DNA of 64,000 bases from Thiorhodospira sibirica ATCC 700588 (lineage in GTDB: Bacteria > Pseudomonadota > Gammaproteobacteria > Ectothiorhodospirales > Ectothiorhodospiraceae): the NCBI RefSeq assembly GCF_000227725.2, contig NZ_MU255056.1, positions 1,342,747-1,406,746 of the forward strand, read 5' to 3'. Below, piece after piece: positions 8,782-52,729 of the stretch; position 1 is the first letter of the stretch; every line of letters begins with the position of its first letter. Made by a program: the position numbers and the translations under genes. Under the pieces are notes generated by a model that was not told where the DNA came from, ran no database searches, and saw only the letters and a program-made list of their open reading frames with translations.

Positions 8782-11700
8782 ATGATGCCTCCTCTTTTTC
8801 AGCAAGACCGCAAACCCCACTTGATCAGTCTGAAATGGAAAGCCTTTTGGTTATTTGGCGCGTTTTTCAGTGGCTTGTTTTTATTCTATATCCACTTCAA
8901 TCACCAAAACCTCAAACAAAGCTATGCGATGCAGCGCGCCAGTACGCAACAGCATGTGCAGCTGGCGCTGACTGGGCTGGTGGATCTTTCGCAGAATAAT
9001 TTATTGAATCTGGCGCAGTTGATTCCGGCGCTCAGTGGCCTGCGTGAGACGCTGGAGCAAGAAGATACGGATGCCCTGCATGCCCTGTTTGCACCGCATT
9101 GGGCGAGTTTGCAGCTAGATAGCGACATTGCCCTGGCCTTATTTGCCAATGCCAGCGGGAAAACCCTGGCCAGCTGGCATACCCTGGCCTCGCAACCGCT
9201 GCCCCTTGAGAGCATTGAGCGCGCGGTGGCGCAGGTGCTGGATTCTGAATTGCCACGTAATTTTGTGGACTGTCGGCCTGAATGCCTGTTGCTCAGTGCG
9301 GTGCCGGTGCTTTCCGAGGGGGAGACGCGCGGGGCGCTGGTGATGGGGCGTCCCCTGTTTACCCTGGTGCAGGATTTTCAGCAGATTGCACAGGCCGATA
9401 TTGTCCTGCTGGCCCCGCCTTCGGGGGATGATGAGGCCATCACGGTGCAACATCCTGCGCTGTGTCCCCGTGAGGTGATCGGCATCACCGGCGCCGCCCG
9501 CGTCTTGCCTCTGCTCAAGGCCTTTCAGACCCAGCAACCAAAGCCATTGGCACCGCATCGCTGGCAGCTGTCCCATCAGCAGCAGCACTATGAAATCATC
9601 GTCCAACCCTTGATTCAGCTCCCTTCCCAGGGCGCGATTTGCGCCTTGATCATCACCGATGTCGGCGAGGCGCTGCAGCATATCTCCCGTTCATTTTATC
9701 GCAATATTTTGCTGGGACTTGGGGCCTTTGGGCTGTTGCAAGTATTGCTGTTCGGGCTGGCGCATTCTTCCTTGTCACGTCTGAGTCGGGTGGCGGCGGT
9801 GCTGCCTGGGCTGGCAGAGCAGCGCTTTGGCGAGGTACGCGATACCCTCGCGCTGACGCCGCATCATTGGCCGGATGAGCTGGATACCCTGGAACACACC
9901 ACGCTGACACTGACCGAGCGTCTGGAAAGCCTGGAGCAGAATATTCAGCAATACACCTGCTCGCTGGCGCAAAAGATGCAGGAGCTGTCGGTGGAGCGTG
10001 AACGCTACGAGCTGGCCGTCGCCGGGGCCAATGATGGCATCTGGGACTGGAATTTGACCACGGATCGGGTGTTTTTCTCGCCGCGCTGGCAGAACATTCT
10101 CGGCTATGCCGATGTCAGCCATGAAGATTCACCGGATCACTGGCTGGATTGCGTGCATAACGAGGATCTGGAAAAGTTGCAGCGGGATTTGCAGCATCAC
10201 CTGGAAGGCGCCACGCCCTGGCTGGAAAATGAACACCGCCTGCGCCACACCGATGGCGCCTATCGCTGGGTATTGTGTCGGGCGATGGCCGTGCGCAATG
10301 CCTCGGGCTATGCCTACCGGCTAGCGGGGTCTATTTCCGACATCACCCAGCGGCGACGCATTGAGGAGCAGCTGAGCCATGATGCCTTGCACGATTTATT
10401 AACCGGTCTGCCCAACCGCAATCTGTTTCTGGATCGGCTGGAACAGGCCATTTACCGTCTGCAGCGTAATCCTGGCAGTGGTTTTGCAGTGTTGCTGCTG
10501 GATCTGGATAATTTTAAAACCATCAACGACGGCTTTGGGCATCATTTTGGCGATCAGGTGCTGGTGGAGGTCGCCAACCGTCTGCACAGCTGCCTGCGCA
10601 CCGGGGACAGTCTGGCCCGTCTGGGCGGGGATGAATTCAGCATTTTGCTGGATGAGGCGCGCACCCTGGAACAGGCCGAGCCGCTGGTGTTGCGGATTCG
10701 CGCCGCTTTTACCCTACCGATCACCGTCTCGGGCTATGAGGTGTTCACCAGTTTCAGCGTGGGCATTGTCATTGGCGCAGATCACGACATCCGTCCGGCG
10801 GAATTGCTGCGCAATGCCGATACTGCGATGTATCACGCCAAGGCCAAAAGCAAAGGCGGGCTGATCCTCTTTCAGGAAAGCATGCACACCAGCGCCATGC
10901 ATCGCATCACCCTGGAAACCGCGCTGCGTTATGCCATTGAGCGTGAGGAATTCAGTCTGTTTTATCAGCCGATTGTGGCCTTGGAGAGCGGCCAGCTAAC
11001 CGGCTTTGAGGCCCTGATTCGCTGGCAAAAAGCCAATGACCAGATTGTTTCTCCGGCCGATTTCATTCCACTGGCCGAGGAGACTGGCCTGATCATCCCC
11101 CTGGGCCGCTGGATCATCAACGAGGCGATAGCCAAGGCCGCCGCCTGGTATCATCAGCAGCTCGAAGGGCGCCCCTTACCGATTAACATCAACGTCTCCG
11201 GACGCCAGATCAAAGATGCCGGACTGCTGCCGGAGTTGCGCAAGGCCTTACAAACACACCAGTTGCCGCCAGAATGGATCAAGATTGAACTCACGGAAAG
11301 CGCGGTGATTGATGACCCGGATCATGCCCTGGCCATCTTGGAACAGATCAAGGACATGGGGCTGGGTCTATGTATGGATGATTTTGGTACCGGCTACTCC
11401 TCCCTAAGCCAGCTGCATACCCTGCCCTTTGATGTGGTCAAGATCGACGGCTCATTTATCCGGCGCATGGATAAAAATATTCACGACACCGGCATGATCA
11501 ACGCCATCATCACCATGACCCATAAACTGGGCAAAACGGTGGTGGCCGAATGTGTCGAATCCTGGTGGCAGGTCGAGGTCTTGCGCAAGATGCATTGCCA
11601 AGGGGGACAGGGCTATGTCTTCTCGCCACCGGTCAACGCCGCCAAGGCAGATACCCTGGTGCAGCAAGGCACTTCCTGGAAAAACCCGGAGGGTGCTTAG
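8782..11700 (+). CDS. Membrane sensor with PAS, GGDEF and EAL domains (c-di-GMP turnover)
   Basis: A 972-residue protein. Transmembrane segments lie at about 14-34 and 305-328, enclosing a periplasmic sensor region of about 265 residues of no recognised type. A HAMP-like linker and a short coiled coil lead into a PAS domain (about 408-528, GIWDWNLTTDRVFFSP...YRWVLCRA). The GGDEF domain follows (signature GGDEF intact at about 614-618, with LLDLDNFKTIND) and then the EAL domain (EALIRW near 741, DDFGTGYSSL, KIDGSFIRRM). Both active-site signatures look complete, so synthesis and breakdown of c-di-GMP are both possible. It is the last gene of an operon with the PstS-like protein and the porin, which suggests sensing of a periplasmic ligand. 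Confidence 0.9.
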   Translation: MMPPLFQQDRKPHLISLKWKAFWLFGAFFSGLFLFYIHFNHQNLKQSYAMQRASTQQHVQLALTGLVDLSQNNLLNLAQLIPALSGLRETLEQEDTDALHALFAPHWASLQLDSDIALALFANASGKTLASWHTLASQPLPLESIERAVAQVLDSELPRNFVDCRPECLLLSAVPVLSEGETRGALVMGRPLFTLVQDFQQIAQADIVLLAPPSGDDEAITVQHPALCPREVIGITGAARVLPLLKAFQTQQPKPLAPHRWQLSHQQQHYEIIVQPLIQLPSQGAICALIITDVGEALQHISRSFYRNILLGLGAFGLLQVLLFGLAHSSLSRLSRVAAVLPGLAEQRFGEVRDTLALTPHHWPDELDTLEHTTLTLTERLESLEQNIQQYTCSLAQKMQELSVERERYELAVAGANDGIWDWNLTTDRVFFSPRWQNILGYADVSHEDSPDHWLDCVHNEDLEKLQRDLQHHLEGATPWLENEHRLRHTDGAYRWVLCRAMAVRNASGYAYRLAGSISDITQRRRIEEQLSHDALHDLLTGLPNRNLFLDRLEQAIYRLQRNPGSGFAVLLLDLDNFKTINDGFGHHFGDQVLVEVANRLHSCLRTGDSLARLGGDEFSILLDEARTLEQAEPLVLRIRAAFTLPITVSGYEVFTSFSVGIVIGADHDIRPAELLRNADTAMYHAKAKSKGGLILFQESMHTSAMHRITLETALRYAIEREEFSLFYQPIVALESGQLTGFEALIRWQKANDQIVSPADFIPLAEETGLIIPLGRWIINEAIAKAAAWYHQQLEGRPLPININVSGRQIKDAGLLPELRKALQTHQLPPEWIKIELTESAVIDDPDHALAILEQIKDMGLGLCMDDFGTGYSSLSQLHTLPFDVVKIDGSFIRRMDKNIHDTGMINAIITMTHKLGKTVVAECVESWWQVEVLRKMHCQGGQGYVFSPPVNAAKADTLVQQGTSWKNPEGA

Positions 11701-11812
11701 GTTCTGCTGACATTTCATCCAAGTTATTGATTTATAAAATCTATGGAGAGTTCCATAAGCTTGGCCGCCAGTATGGGATGATAATGCCCCCCACCCAACA
11801 CCCGAAAAAGCC

Positions 11813-12102
11813 GTCAACTGCCCTGGCCTAAAGGCAGGAGGGTCAGGATCATGCAGGCGTTAGGTAAAGCGTCGAACCTGCCTGCTGCGACACACGCGGC
11901 GCAGGCAGGGGCTAGCCGGTTGTACAGTACACACATTGGCGGGGGAGCGACCACGCCGTGAGGCGTTGTCCGTCACCAGGCCCTTACGGGCAGAGCCTCA
12001 CGGTCCGGCAGGTGGATGGTCTGCACTTATTTTCGGCGGCTGCGAGGTCGTAGCTGCTATCCCTCCCCGGCATCAAGGCCGGGGTTTCTCGCGGAGAAAC
12101 TG
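11813..12102 (+). mobile_element. HEARO/omega-RNA-like element, copy A, without IscB, ending at the acyltransferase start codon
   Basis: About 290 bases shared with copy B at 37991-38437. It begins GTCAACTGCCC next to a small hairpin and continues through TCAGGATCATG and AAAGCGTCGAA. A stem at 11949-11970 has arms GACCACGCC and GGCGTTGTC around a GTGA loop; the same stem in copy B has different bases but keeps a GNRA loop (GCAA), as in a conserved RNA fold. The right end (12056-12102) has the hairpin CCCCGGC/GCCGGGG and ends GGAGAAACTG, directly followed by ATGA. HEARO RNAs are IscB omega-RNAs whose mobile elements were reported to lie just before ATGA or GTGA. No iscB or tnpB is present. Compared with copy B it lacks about 110 bases near the left end and carries an inserted palindrome at 11877-11909. 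The RNA class is inferred from memory of its features. Confidence 0.65.
11877..11909. repeat. Palindromic GC-rich repeat (copy 1 of 3)
   Basis: Arms CCTGCCTGC and GCAGGCAGG flank a core TGCGACACACGCG-like sequence. Related palindromes lie at 38027-38069 and 59000-59041. This one interrupts element copy A: copy B has unrelated sequence at the same place, between GTCGAA and AGCCGGTTGTAC. Confidence 0.75.
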
Positions 12103-12780
12103 ATGAGCAATTGGTTAATACGCAGGATTGCGGGGGTGATGCCCTGGCTGATACAGCGCAGTCTGCGGCGGGGTTTGCATGCGGTTTATCTGCGCACGGA
12201 TGGTCAGGCACTGGCGGCTACGGCGCTGCTGACGGCGAATCATCACAGTTGGTGGGATGGCTATCTGGTGTGGTTATTGCGTGAGCGGCTGCAGGCGCGG
12301 ATGGGACTGATTATGCGGGCGGCGCAGCTTGATCGCTTTCGCTTTTTTCGGCCCATGGGGGTGTTTAGTGATCGCGAGGTGCGCCAGGCGATTCACCGCC
12401 TCAAGCATGGCGAGAGCGTGGTCATTTTTGCGGAAGGGAAATTATGTCCGCCCGGTGTGGTGCGTGAGATTCGCCCTGGGAGTGCCTTTTTGGCGCGCAA
12501 GGCGCAAGTGCCCATTCAGCCTTTGGCGCTGCGGGTGGTGGTGCGCGGTGCCCAACATCCGGAGGCCTTTATTTCGCTGGGGCCGGTGCTACCTGCTACG
12601 GCCTCTGCCGAGCAGATCGTGGCGGCGATTAACCATGAGTTAGCGCAGATTGAGCAGAGCATTGCGCACAGTGACCCCGAACAGATGCCGCCGGGCTATA
12701 CCTGCTGGGTTGCGGGGGCGCAGGGCCTGCATGAGCGCATGGGCTGGATTGACCGGCTGTGGCAAGGCAGGGCTAAGTAG
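12103..12780 (+). CDS. PlsC-like 1-acylglycerol-3-phosphate acyltransferase family protein
   Basis: A 225-residue lysophospholipid acyltransferase-type protein. The catalytic HX4D motif is HHSWWD (near residue 47), and the second conserved block is IFAEGKLCPPG (FxEG type). It is shorter than many PlsC proteins and has one weakly hydrophobic segment near the N-terminus, so it is probably a peripheral inner-membrane enzyme; the acyl acceptor is unknown. The ATG at 12103 lies immediately after element copy A, and the GGAG at 12093-12096, inside the element, is its only visible Shine-Dalgarno sequence. The gene therefore seems to be translated from a ribosome site brought or replaced by the insertion. 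Confidence 0.8.
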   Translation: MSNWLIRRIAGVMPWLIQRSLRRGLHAVYLRTDGQALAATALLTANHHSWWDGYLVWLLRERLQARMGLIMRAAQLDRFRFFRPMGVFSDREVRQAIHRLKHGESVVIFAEGKLCPPGVVREIRPGSAFLARKAQVPIQPLALRVVVRGAQHPEAFISLGPVLPATASAEQIVAAINHELAQIEQSIAHSDPEQMPPGYTCWVAGAQGLHERMGWIDRLWQGRAK

Positions 12781-37990: not shown

Positions 37991-38437
37991 GTCAACTACC
38001 CCGCCCTAAAGGGCGGAGCTTGCCCGCCTGCCGCGACGCACCTGCCTGCGCCGCGTGCGTCGCGGCAGGCAGGCGCGGCGCAGACAGGTGAAAGCAAGCT
38101 AGGTTGACCAGCCTAAGCCCTGTTAAAGGGGCTACGTGTACAACAGGTCGTTAAGACTCACCGGCGGATGCTTCCTCAGTCTGCCGCTCTGAAAGATCAG
38201 GATCATGCTGACGCAAGGTAAAACGTCGAAGGTTTTGATCGCCGTGCAAGCGGGAGCCGGTTGTACACATTGGCGAGGGGAGCGACGATGCCGCAAGGTG
38301 TCGTCCGTCACCAGGCCCTTACGGGCAGAGCCTCACGGCCCAGCAGGTGGAAGGCCTGCACTTATTTCCGGCGGCTGCGAGGTCGTAGCCGCTATCCCTC
38401 CCCAGCCTGAAGGCCGGGGTTTCTCGCGGAGAAACTG
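37991..38437 (+). mobile_element. HEARO/omega-RNA-like element, copy B, without IscB, ending at the ppa start codon
   Basis: The longest copy (about 447 bases). It starts GTCAACTACC with the hairpin CCGCCC-TAAA-GGGCGG at 38001-38016, contains an inserted palindrome (38027-38069), and continues with GCGG/CCGC around the GATGCTTCCTCAGTCTG loop at 38164-38187. The stem at 38284-38305 has arms GACGATGCC and GGTGTCGTC with a GCAA loop. Further stems are GCAGG/CCTGC and GCGGCT/AGCCGC. The right end at 38391-38437 matches copy A almost base for base and ends GGAGAAACTG, abutting ATGA of ppa. LE hairpin, structured RNA, RE hairpin and the ATGA junction match HEARO elements whose omega-RNA serves IscB. 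No iscB gene is present. A ribosome-site-like ACGGAGAAGG before an ATG at 37900 may be the displaced ppa leader. Confidence 0.7.
38027..38069. repeat. Palindromic GC-rich repeat (copy 2 of 3)
   Basis: Arms CCTGCCGCGACGCAC (38027-38041) and GTGCGTCGCGGCAGG (38055-38069) are perfect 15-base complements, followed by a second half-palindrome up to about 38088. It interrupts the HEARO-like element just after its left-end hairpin. Its core words (CTGCCTGC, CGACGCAC, GCAGGC) are shared with the palindromes at 11877-11909 and 59000-59041. Confidence 0.8.
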
Positions 38438-38974
38438 ATGAATCTTGACAAGATACCTGCTGGCAACGACATTCCCAATGATTTCAATGTGGTGATCGAA
38501 ATTCCTGCCCACGGATCGCCGGTCAAATATGAATTTGACAAAGAAAGCGGCGCGCTGTTTGTGGATCGTTTTATGAACGCCGCGATGTTTTATCCGTGCA
38601 GCTACGGTTTTGTCCCGCATACCCTGTCTGAAGACGGTGACCCGGTGGATGTGCTGGTGATCACGCCGGTACCGGTGATGAGTGGCAGCGTGGTGCCATG
38701 CCGTCCGGTGGGCATGTTGAAAATGACCGACGAATCCGGTCCGGATGCCAAGATTCTGGCCGTGCCCTTGTCCAAGCTGTACACCCAATACGAAAAGGTA
38801 CAAGGCCCTGATGATCTGCCGCGTGAATTGCTGGCACAGATCAGCCACTTTTTCGAGCATTACAAAGAACTGGAGCCCAACAAGTGGGTTAAGGTCGATG
38901 CCTGGGTGGGCGTGGAAGAAGCCAAGGCAGAATTGGTGGCCAGCTACAAGCGCTATCAAAAAAGCAAGGTCTAA
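38438..38974 (+). CDS. ppa: Inorganic pyrophosphatase (family I)
   Basis: A 178-residue soluble pyrophosphatase: [44 protein letters not shown] (the DxDPxD metal site reads DGDPVD) and [11 protein letters not shown]. It hydrolyses pyrophosphate made in biosynthesis. The start codon ATGA lies immediately after HEARO-like copy B, and the only nearby Shine-Dalgarno sequence, GGAG at 38428-38431, belongs to the element. An essential gene thus appears to use a ribosome site within a mobile element. Confidence 0.95.
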
Positions 38975-51999: not shown

Positions 52000-52060
52000 G
52001 TCGGTGTTGCGCCGACGTGCTATCCCTCTCCGGCATGAAGGCCGGGGTTTCTCGCGCAAA
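52000..52060 (+). repeat. HEARO/IS605-type right-end fragment, copy C, before the carboxylesterase start codon
   Basis: The core GCTATCCCTCTCCGGCATGA (52019-52038), then AGGCCGGGGTTTCTCGCG, matches the right ends of copies A (12056) and B (38391) and keeps the CCGGC/GCCGG hairpin. A separate small stem GTCGG-TGTTGC-GCCGAC lies just upstream. The element ends CGCAAA and is again followed directly by ATGA (52061). The GGAGAAACTG tail of the other copies is missing. No left end was found within 260 bases. Confidence 0.7.
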
Positions 52061-52729
52061 ATGATGACCCGATTGATGACTGACAGCGTATGCGTTGATA
52101 CCGCTGCGCAGCCACAGCATTGCGTTGTATGGCTACATGGCCTGGGAGCGGATGGACATGATTTTGAGCCGATCGTGCCGGAGTTAGCGATACCGGAACA
52201 TCAGGCCGTGCGGTTTATCTTTCCGCATGCCCCGGTGCGTCCGGTGACCATTAACGGCGGGATGCAAATGCGTGCCTGGTATGATTTTTTAAGCCTCGCA
52301 CCGGTACGCGGGGAGGATTATGCCCAGGTGCAGGAATCAGTGATCGCCTTGCAGCAGACCATCACCGCGCTGCGTCAGGAATATAGCAAGGTGGTGATCG
52401 GTGGCTTTTCGCAAGGCGGGGTGGTGGCGGGGACTGCCGCTTTGAGCGAAGGGGCAAGCCCGGATGGAGTTTTTGTGTTATCCGCCTATTTGCCGGATTT
52501 TCATCGTGCCGGGCTTACTCTGTCTGCGGAGGCGGCGGATTTGCCGGTATTTCAGGCGCATGGCGTGCACGATCCGGTGATCCCGGTGGCCTTTGGGCGC
52601 GCCGCCCGCGAGACCTTTGAGGAGGCAGGGACGGCGCTGGAATATGAGGAATACATGATGGAGCACAATGTTTGTCTGGAGGAAATCCGTGCGCTGCGTA
52701 CCTGGCTGCTCAAGGTGCTGGCGGCCTGA
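52061..52729 (+). CDS. Carboxylesterase / phospholipase family alpha/beta hydrolase
   Basis: A 222-residue esterase of the EstB/YpfH group. The catalytic Ser is in GGFSQGGVV, the Asp in QAHGVHDPVIPV and the His in MEHNVCLEEI; the oxyanion region is VVWLHGLGADGHDF. It hydrolyses short-chain esters or thioester-like adducts in the cytoplasm. Starts at 52061 or 52064 (ATGATG) both lie at the right end of element copy C. No strong Shine-Dalgarno sequence remains (only GGGG far upstream), so translation may be weak. Confidence 0.9.
   Translation: MMTRLMTDSVCVDTAAQPQHCVVWLHGLGADGHDFEPIVPELAIPEHQAVRFIFPHAPVRPVTINGGMQMRAWYDFLSLAPVRGEDYAQVQESVIALQQTITALRQEYSKVVIGGFSQGGVVAGTAALSEGASPDGVFVLSAYLPDFHRAGLTLSAEAADLPVFQAHGVHDPVIPVAFGRAARETFEEAGTALEYEEYMMEHNVCLEEIRALRTWLLKVLAA

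Follow-up and report, generated by a model that had tools for sequence, protein, structure and literature searches.

Two IscB-less elements in the window

What kind of element ends exactly at the start codon of a PlsC-like acyltransferase gene, and why does it lie there? The window, meaning the whole 64-kb stretch of DNA that was analysed, contains two related sequences in such a position, here called copy A and copy B, and the first-pass annotation had described copy A as a HEARO-like element with the same architecture as copy B. The features concerned are the following:

11797..11812, + strand: left flank of copy A, 16 nt, in the position of an IscB guide (analogy with empty alleles in the sister genus)
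11813..12102, + strand: copy A, IscB-less omegaRNA-type element of 290 nt, internally deleted (alignment to copy B and ten other copies)
11813..11834, + strand: left end of copy A, where the guide-adaptor stem-loop begins (alignment to copy B)
11949..11970, + strand: GNRA hairpin in the 3' region, with eight of its nine pairs formed and a single C.U mismatch
11988..12102, + strand: conserved 3' module of IscB-less elements, several hairpins (alignment A2, model R1)
12065..12084, + strand: right-end hairpin CCCCGGC..GCCGGGG (predicted fold)
12093..12096, + strand: GGAG Shine-Dalgarno motif (sequence), within a predicted small hairpin UUUCUC-GCG-GAGAAA at 12085-12099
12103..12780, + strand: gene for a PlsC-like acyltransferase of 225 aa that begins at ATGA (Pfam PF01553)
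37991..38437, + strand: copy B, 447 nt, an element without IscB (Rfam RF02033, 102.1 bits)
38438..38974, + strand: inorganic pyrophosphatase gene, start codon in ATGA (Pfam)

HEARO RNA is the omegaRNA of IscB, an ancestor of Cas9, which uses it as guide RNA. The assignment to HEARO-type elements was borne out, since copy B contains a complete HEARO omegaRNA at 37991-38288 (102.1 bits against a gathering score of 83 for RF02033) and copy A shares both ends and the 3' module with it. Copy A starts with GTCAAC at 11813, and its end at 12102 is adjoined by the ATGA at 12103-12106 that opens the 225-aa PlsC-like ORF, which agrees with the boundary originally placed at the start codon; the ribosome-binding motif that the element was said to supply was also found, as GGAG at 12093-12096, 6 nt 5' of the ATG of this gene. 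The right end of copy B, with the same ends as copy A, carries GGAG at 38428-38431, and the inorganic pyrophosphatase that follows it can be aligned to a solved structure from its first residue onward. No IscB-type ORF was found inside either copy.

The shared architecture holds for the ends and for the 3' part, in which the whole module is complete in copy A, but not for the omegaRNA core, which in the alignment to copy B is absent from copy A after approximately position 11834, that is, after the first 22 nt (~170 nt of the core of copy B are missing). Through this deletion the guide-adaptor stem has lost its 3' strand and the pseudoknot its 5' partner, so that copy A, judged from its sequence, is probably no longer a working omegaRNA. 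Rfam returned no HEARO match for 11700-12200 even at E<=1. Calling copy A HEARO-like was thus right as to type and silent about the internal deletion and the missing Rfam match; on alignment it is best described as a derivative of the HEARO/omegaRNA family (RF02033) and not as a full member, and its present role is probably only that of leader of the PlsC-like gene. It is a real element and a member of a dispersed family.

Two minor observations concern right ends. On the minus strand, 12044-12166 of the window resembles the archaeal HgcC RNA family below threshold (28 bits against a gathering score of 50), and this match falls on the right-end hairpins of copy A. Moreover, a third related right-end remnant, TTTCTCGCGCAAAATG directly followed by ATGA and without a Shine-Dalgarno motif, was located at 52019-52067 (L038), preceding a carboxylesterase-like ORF of 222 aa.

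Fold and covariation of the 3' region

Not all of the sequence details first reported for the two copies could be reproduced. The last 47 bases had been described as shared, when the identical 3' end comprises 32 nt and 44 of the 47 positions match. The compensating changes proposed between the stem at 11949-11970 in copy A and its counterpart at 38284-38305 in copy B were not recovered either, because double-sided compensation is absent: copy A has a C.U mismatch where copy B has G-C, and two further pairs differ by one-sided wobble changes. The pairing said to be kept in this stem is retained in eight of its nine pairs and lost at the C.U mismatch.

The broader proposal of a conserved RNA-like fold was upheld by both of the analyses suggested for it, namely folding of the two copies and covariation among additional ones. 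The 173-nt 3' regions of both copies fold better than shuffled sequences (z of -3.3 and -2.8), and both-side changes are present across 19 sequences from three genomes, in which 98.6% of the cells of 41 pairs are paired, compared with 92.8% in shuffles, and 52 cells are changed on both sides, compared with 20.9 in shuffles (0/500 shuffles). A shift of the partners by one to three columns makes this signal collapse. It represents few independent covariation events, since most both-side changes fall on one split, separating the genome that carries the window from G003/G009. Additionally, predicted folds place subterminal hairpins at the element ends, as expected of IS200/IS605-like elements, and a long-range pairing, GCGAGGGG/UUUCUCGC, is predicted to compete with the hairpin that holds the Shine-Dalgarno motif.

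The element family and its IscB and transposase genes

The genome that carries the window (3.2 Mb) has 10 HEARO matches and 11 long right-end copies, and its total amounts to 11 IscB-less elements and one with an intact IscB. The latter, together with its omegaRNA, is located on contig C5, has ends as in copies A and B, and lies directly 5' of the start codon of a tRNA-editing, YbaK-like gene. IscB matches were detected in all 9 genomes checked, above the cut-off in 8 of them; G278 carries IscB-less elements, yet no IscB above the cut-off. An IS200-type TnpA is absent from the genome carrying the window, which has just two RAYT-size Y1 matches, and TnpA of IS200 size was found in G003, G009, G010, G161, G244 and G278, with no Y1 in G373. 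The IscB-bearing elements have no Shine-Dalgarno motif, and in the intact ones the IscB ORF ends 26-63 nt before the host ATG, a spacing that might couple translation of the host gene to that of IscB.

Besides, short TnpB-type MITEs were observed in the same genome (L027-L040), running from TTGACATCCTCCCC to CGCGCAAACTG directly before ATGA and having the right-end hairpin in common with the IscB elements. In contrast to the elements that bear a Shine-Dalgarno motif, these MITEs have a related right end without the motif and are mostly located away from start codons. Directly 5' of the start codons of glnB (L034) and of a gene for a SmpA/OmlA-like lipoprotein (L024) there are solo right-end remnants that carry GGAGG or GGAG, apparently fossil elements retained as leaders.

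Insertion sites and empty alleles

No empty allele was found for copy A or copy B themselves; for copy A it was sought by means of the PlsC-like gene, whose relatives are distant (Deinococci, at most 48% identity). Genome G003 of the sister genus has 23 HEARO matches, and the joined flanks of its copies were searched against ten genomes of that genus. Uninterrupted alleles were found for pckA (98% in G009), hmuV (95%), a Gfo/Idh/MocA gene (95%) and others, and at their junctions the left flank is followed by ATGA with no gap and no duplication. Comparison of these alleles shows the insertion of the sister copies to be base-exact, directly 5' of ATGA and without target duplication, and such precision next to a fixed short motif is characteristic of IS200/IS605. 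By analogy, the empty site of copy A would consist of its flank (11797..11812) joined to ATGA. This flank would be the guide of copy A, considering that the IscB guide comprises 16-17 nt located 5' of the omegaRNA scaffold (PMC9640706).

At hmuV, the native ribosome-binding sequence GGGAGG is found immediately to the left of the junction, and the inserted element therefore stands between it and the ATG. Native Shine-Dalgarno motifs in the left flanks were also considered as a general proof of such separation and dropped, because their enrichment is weak; hmuV is a clear case. In G003, an omegaRNA-only element was observed directly 3' of a right-end-like remnant at prlC (L115) and at L112, a sign that one and the same ATGA may have been used more than once for insertion; in that case the guide at L115 would correspond to the tips of IscB-type elements. 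A search at the level of the order added nothing beyond the family.

Residence at start codons

The position at a start codon was correctly recognized for copies A and B, but it is not a peculiarity of these two, as it characterizes the whole family bearing the Shine-Dalgarno motif: dozens of sister copies in the same genome and in related bacteria lie at start codons like copy A. The null expectation was taken from the 64-kb window alone, with ORF length as a proxy for the gene start, for which Pfam gave support in only part of the set. In the window, 18.5% of 557 ATGA tetramers, mostly inside genes, are the start of an in-frame ORF of 90 codons or more, compared with 26 of the 31 element junctions of the first set (at least 90 aa; P = 6e-15). 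Outside gene interiors, at most 27 of 88 ATGA tetramers of the window are near gene starts, which gives an upper bound of 31%. Pfam domains start near residue 1 in most junction ORFs, clear internal insertions amount to just two in the first set (higB and a receiver-domain gene), and at recA the junction precedes the usual start by a few codons. An IscB-bearing element was observed inside the higB toxin gene in G010 (L127), within-gene insertions being few.

A class-wide search yielded 124 HEARO matches in G161, 69 in G276 and 37 in G373, and for a wider test 99 regions were retrieved and their right ends classified by the Shine-Dalgarno motif (GGAG or GAGG) and by ATGA or GTGA. IscB-less elements with GGAG/GAGG and ATGA lie at an ORF start in 27 of 31 cases (G000, G003, G276, G373), compared with 19 of 43 for ATGA ends without the motif (mainly CTCGGGGACACTG) and 1 of 7 for GTGA ends; for IscB-bearing elements the count is 7 of 9. 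Ends with and without the motif differ (Fisher P = 2e-4), the class with the motif being partly confounded with lineage and copy age, and against the 31% bound the probabilities are 1e-10 for ends with the motif and 0.04 for those without. Start-codon residence depends on the right-end type, and IscB-less elements bearing a Shine-Dalgarno motif are almost always located between a gene leader and its start codon; this residence is the main new result of the current study.

The recipients include GlgA, citrate synthase, ThiG, PdxA, SurA, FeoB, HU and KaiB, as well as MetH, biotin carboxylase and a PEP-utilising enzyme, and they are ordinary genes at seemingly native starts. A 119-nt covariance model of the 3' module (R1), the last four positions of which are ATGA, also retrieved solo right ends bearing the motif before nadC in G244 (gene name read from the translation) and before ORFs in G278 and G373, thus in further bacterial families, in a class-wide search that under-counts because few candidates were scored per genome. 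In G161 (L227-L266), part of the 124 HEARO matches form a family that ends before GTGA, away from gene starts.

Proposed mechanism and alternative explanations

Taken together, we consider it probable that copies A and B are non-autonomous, IscB-less, IS200/IS605-like IscB-omegaRNA (HEARO) elements lodged at start codons by the following mechanism. Elements of this kind insert directly in front of ATGA and leave the target unduplicated, as the empty alleles of sister copies show, and ATGA would probably serve both as target motif and as TAM. Weinberg reportedly described HEARO integration at ATGA/GTGA in 2009, and the TAM of AwaIscB is ATGA. Because ATGA probably has both functions, the left flank would be the guide, and guide plus ATGA would constitute the empty allele. 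IscB acting in trans would cut this allele, which would favour retention of the element, as has been proposed for TnpB (PMC11870625). Since the guide lies outside the element, it needs a transcribed neighbourhood, and landing between promoter and start codon would solve this, with the host promoter transcribing the guide plus the omegaRNA. The GGAG of the element would replace the separated native ribosome-binding site and lower the cost to the host, the gene presumably remaining translated from this right-end motif. Several findings speak against this reading: no IS200-type TnpA in the genome that carries the window, no IscB above the cut-off in G278, a weak enrichment of native Shine-Dalgarno motifs in the left flanks, the partial confounding of the motif class with lineage and copy age, and no empty allele found for copy A or copy B.

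In the most far-reaching version, IscB-less omegaRNA elements would be an evolved, leader-replacing mobile class with a portable ribosome-binding site at the start codon, in which the start codon is the target, host promoters make the guide RNA and IscB binding possibly acts as a switch. These propositions are advanced jointly and tentatively, at somewhat less than even confidence; if they are true, a host gene becomes, with every insertion, the cistron downstream of a guide RNA.

It is also conceivable, to a degree that falls a little short of an even chance, that insertion occurs at any ATGA and that gene-damaging copies are then purged, leaving intergenic and start-codon sites, so that the Shine-Dalgarno motif just improves tolerance at starts and there is neither start targeting nor a link to guide transcription. 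Such purging agrees with the elements without the motif, many of them near-identical in G276, whose 19 of 43 at ORF starts is near the 31% upper bound, and with the near absence of insertions inside genes. However, the families with the motif reach 27 of 31 with empty alleles in a sister species that are 98% identical, and intergenic copies would therefore need to be purged fast.

Domestication as a riboregulator, the element being kept since its omegaRNA, IscB binding or Shine-Dalgarno hairpin regulates the downstream gene, appears unlikely. The predicted hairpin with its competing pairing and the precedent of IsrB, whose protein contacts the motif of its own nuclease ORF within the terminal hairpin of the omegaRNA (PMC9581776), speak for it, but the downstream genes are functionally unrelated, the copies are absent from sister species and copy A retained the leader after loss of the omegaRNA core. 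A plain non-coding leader or repeat unrelated to mobile guide-RNA elements, which the missing Rfam match of copy A taken alone would allow, can be virtually discounted, being already contradicted by the HEARO identity of copy B, by the ends and whole 3' module that both copies share and by the empty alleles of sister copies.

Comparison with known systems

For the preferred reading as non-autonomous IscB-omegaRNA elements, the closest relatives are HEARO/IscB OMEGA elements, as copy B belongs to the same RNA family (RF02033), has the same end architecture as the IscB-bearing copy and, like them, is inserted before ATGA. Unlike these, copies A and B have no IscB gene, reside at start codons and possess an additional conserved 3' module that includes a Shine-Dalgarno motif; in copy A the omegaRNA core is also missing. 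OmegaRNAs that stand alone and work with IscB in trans are mentioned in a passage of PMC9581776 that cites Altae-Tran 2021 and, as described in that passage, likewise represent an omegaRNA without a nuclease gene in an IscB-encoding genome; in the literature examined, no description was found of a start-codon position and a right end with a Shine-Dalgarno motif for them. Non-autonomous IS200/IS605 derivatives (PATE/MITE) are likewise short and hairpin-ended, without target duplication or transposase gene, but elements of the A/B type carry omegaRNA-derived sequence and a ribosome-binding motif. The omegaRNA of IsrB also has a linked 3' hairpin holding the Shine-Dalgarno motif of the next ORF, which is a suggestive precedent for the hairpin predicted here, although that ORF encodes the nuclease whereas the ORF after copies A and B is an unrelated host gene.

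A link of IscB/HEARO insertion to start codons or ribosome-binding sites was not found in the literature searched, Weinberg 2009 and Altae-Tran 2021 being outside this search. Expression of OMEGA guide RNAs and tolerance of the elements are directly testable, the ends with the Shine-Dalgarno motif, those without it and the GTGA ends forming a natural series. Moreover, a number of genes in such genomes would have mobile-element leaders, and their annotated starts may be wrong.

The PlsC-like gene

A coding reading of copy A, as a 254-aa ORF running from 12016 through the element, was considered and rejected, because the part that extends the protein at its N-terminus consists of element sequence and the spacing of the motif fits the ATG at 12103. 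The closest named relatives of the protein encoded at 12103-12780 belong to the Trueperaceae/Deinococci (up to 48% identity), which suggests that the gene was acquired by horizontal transfer.
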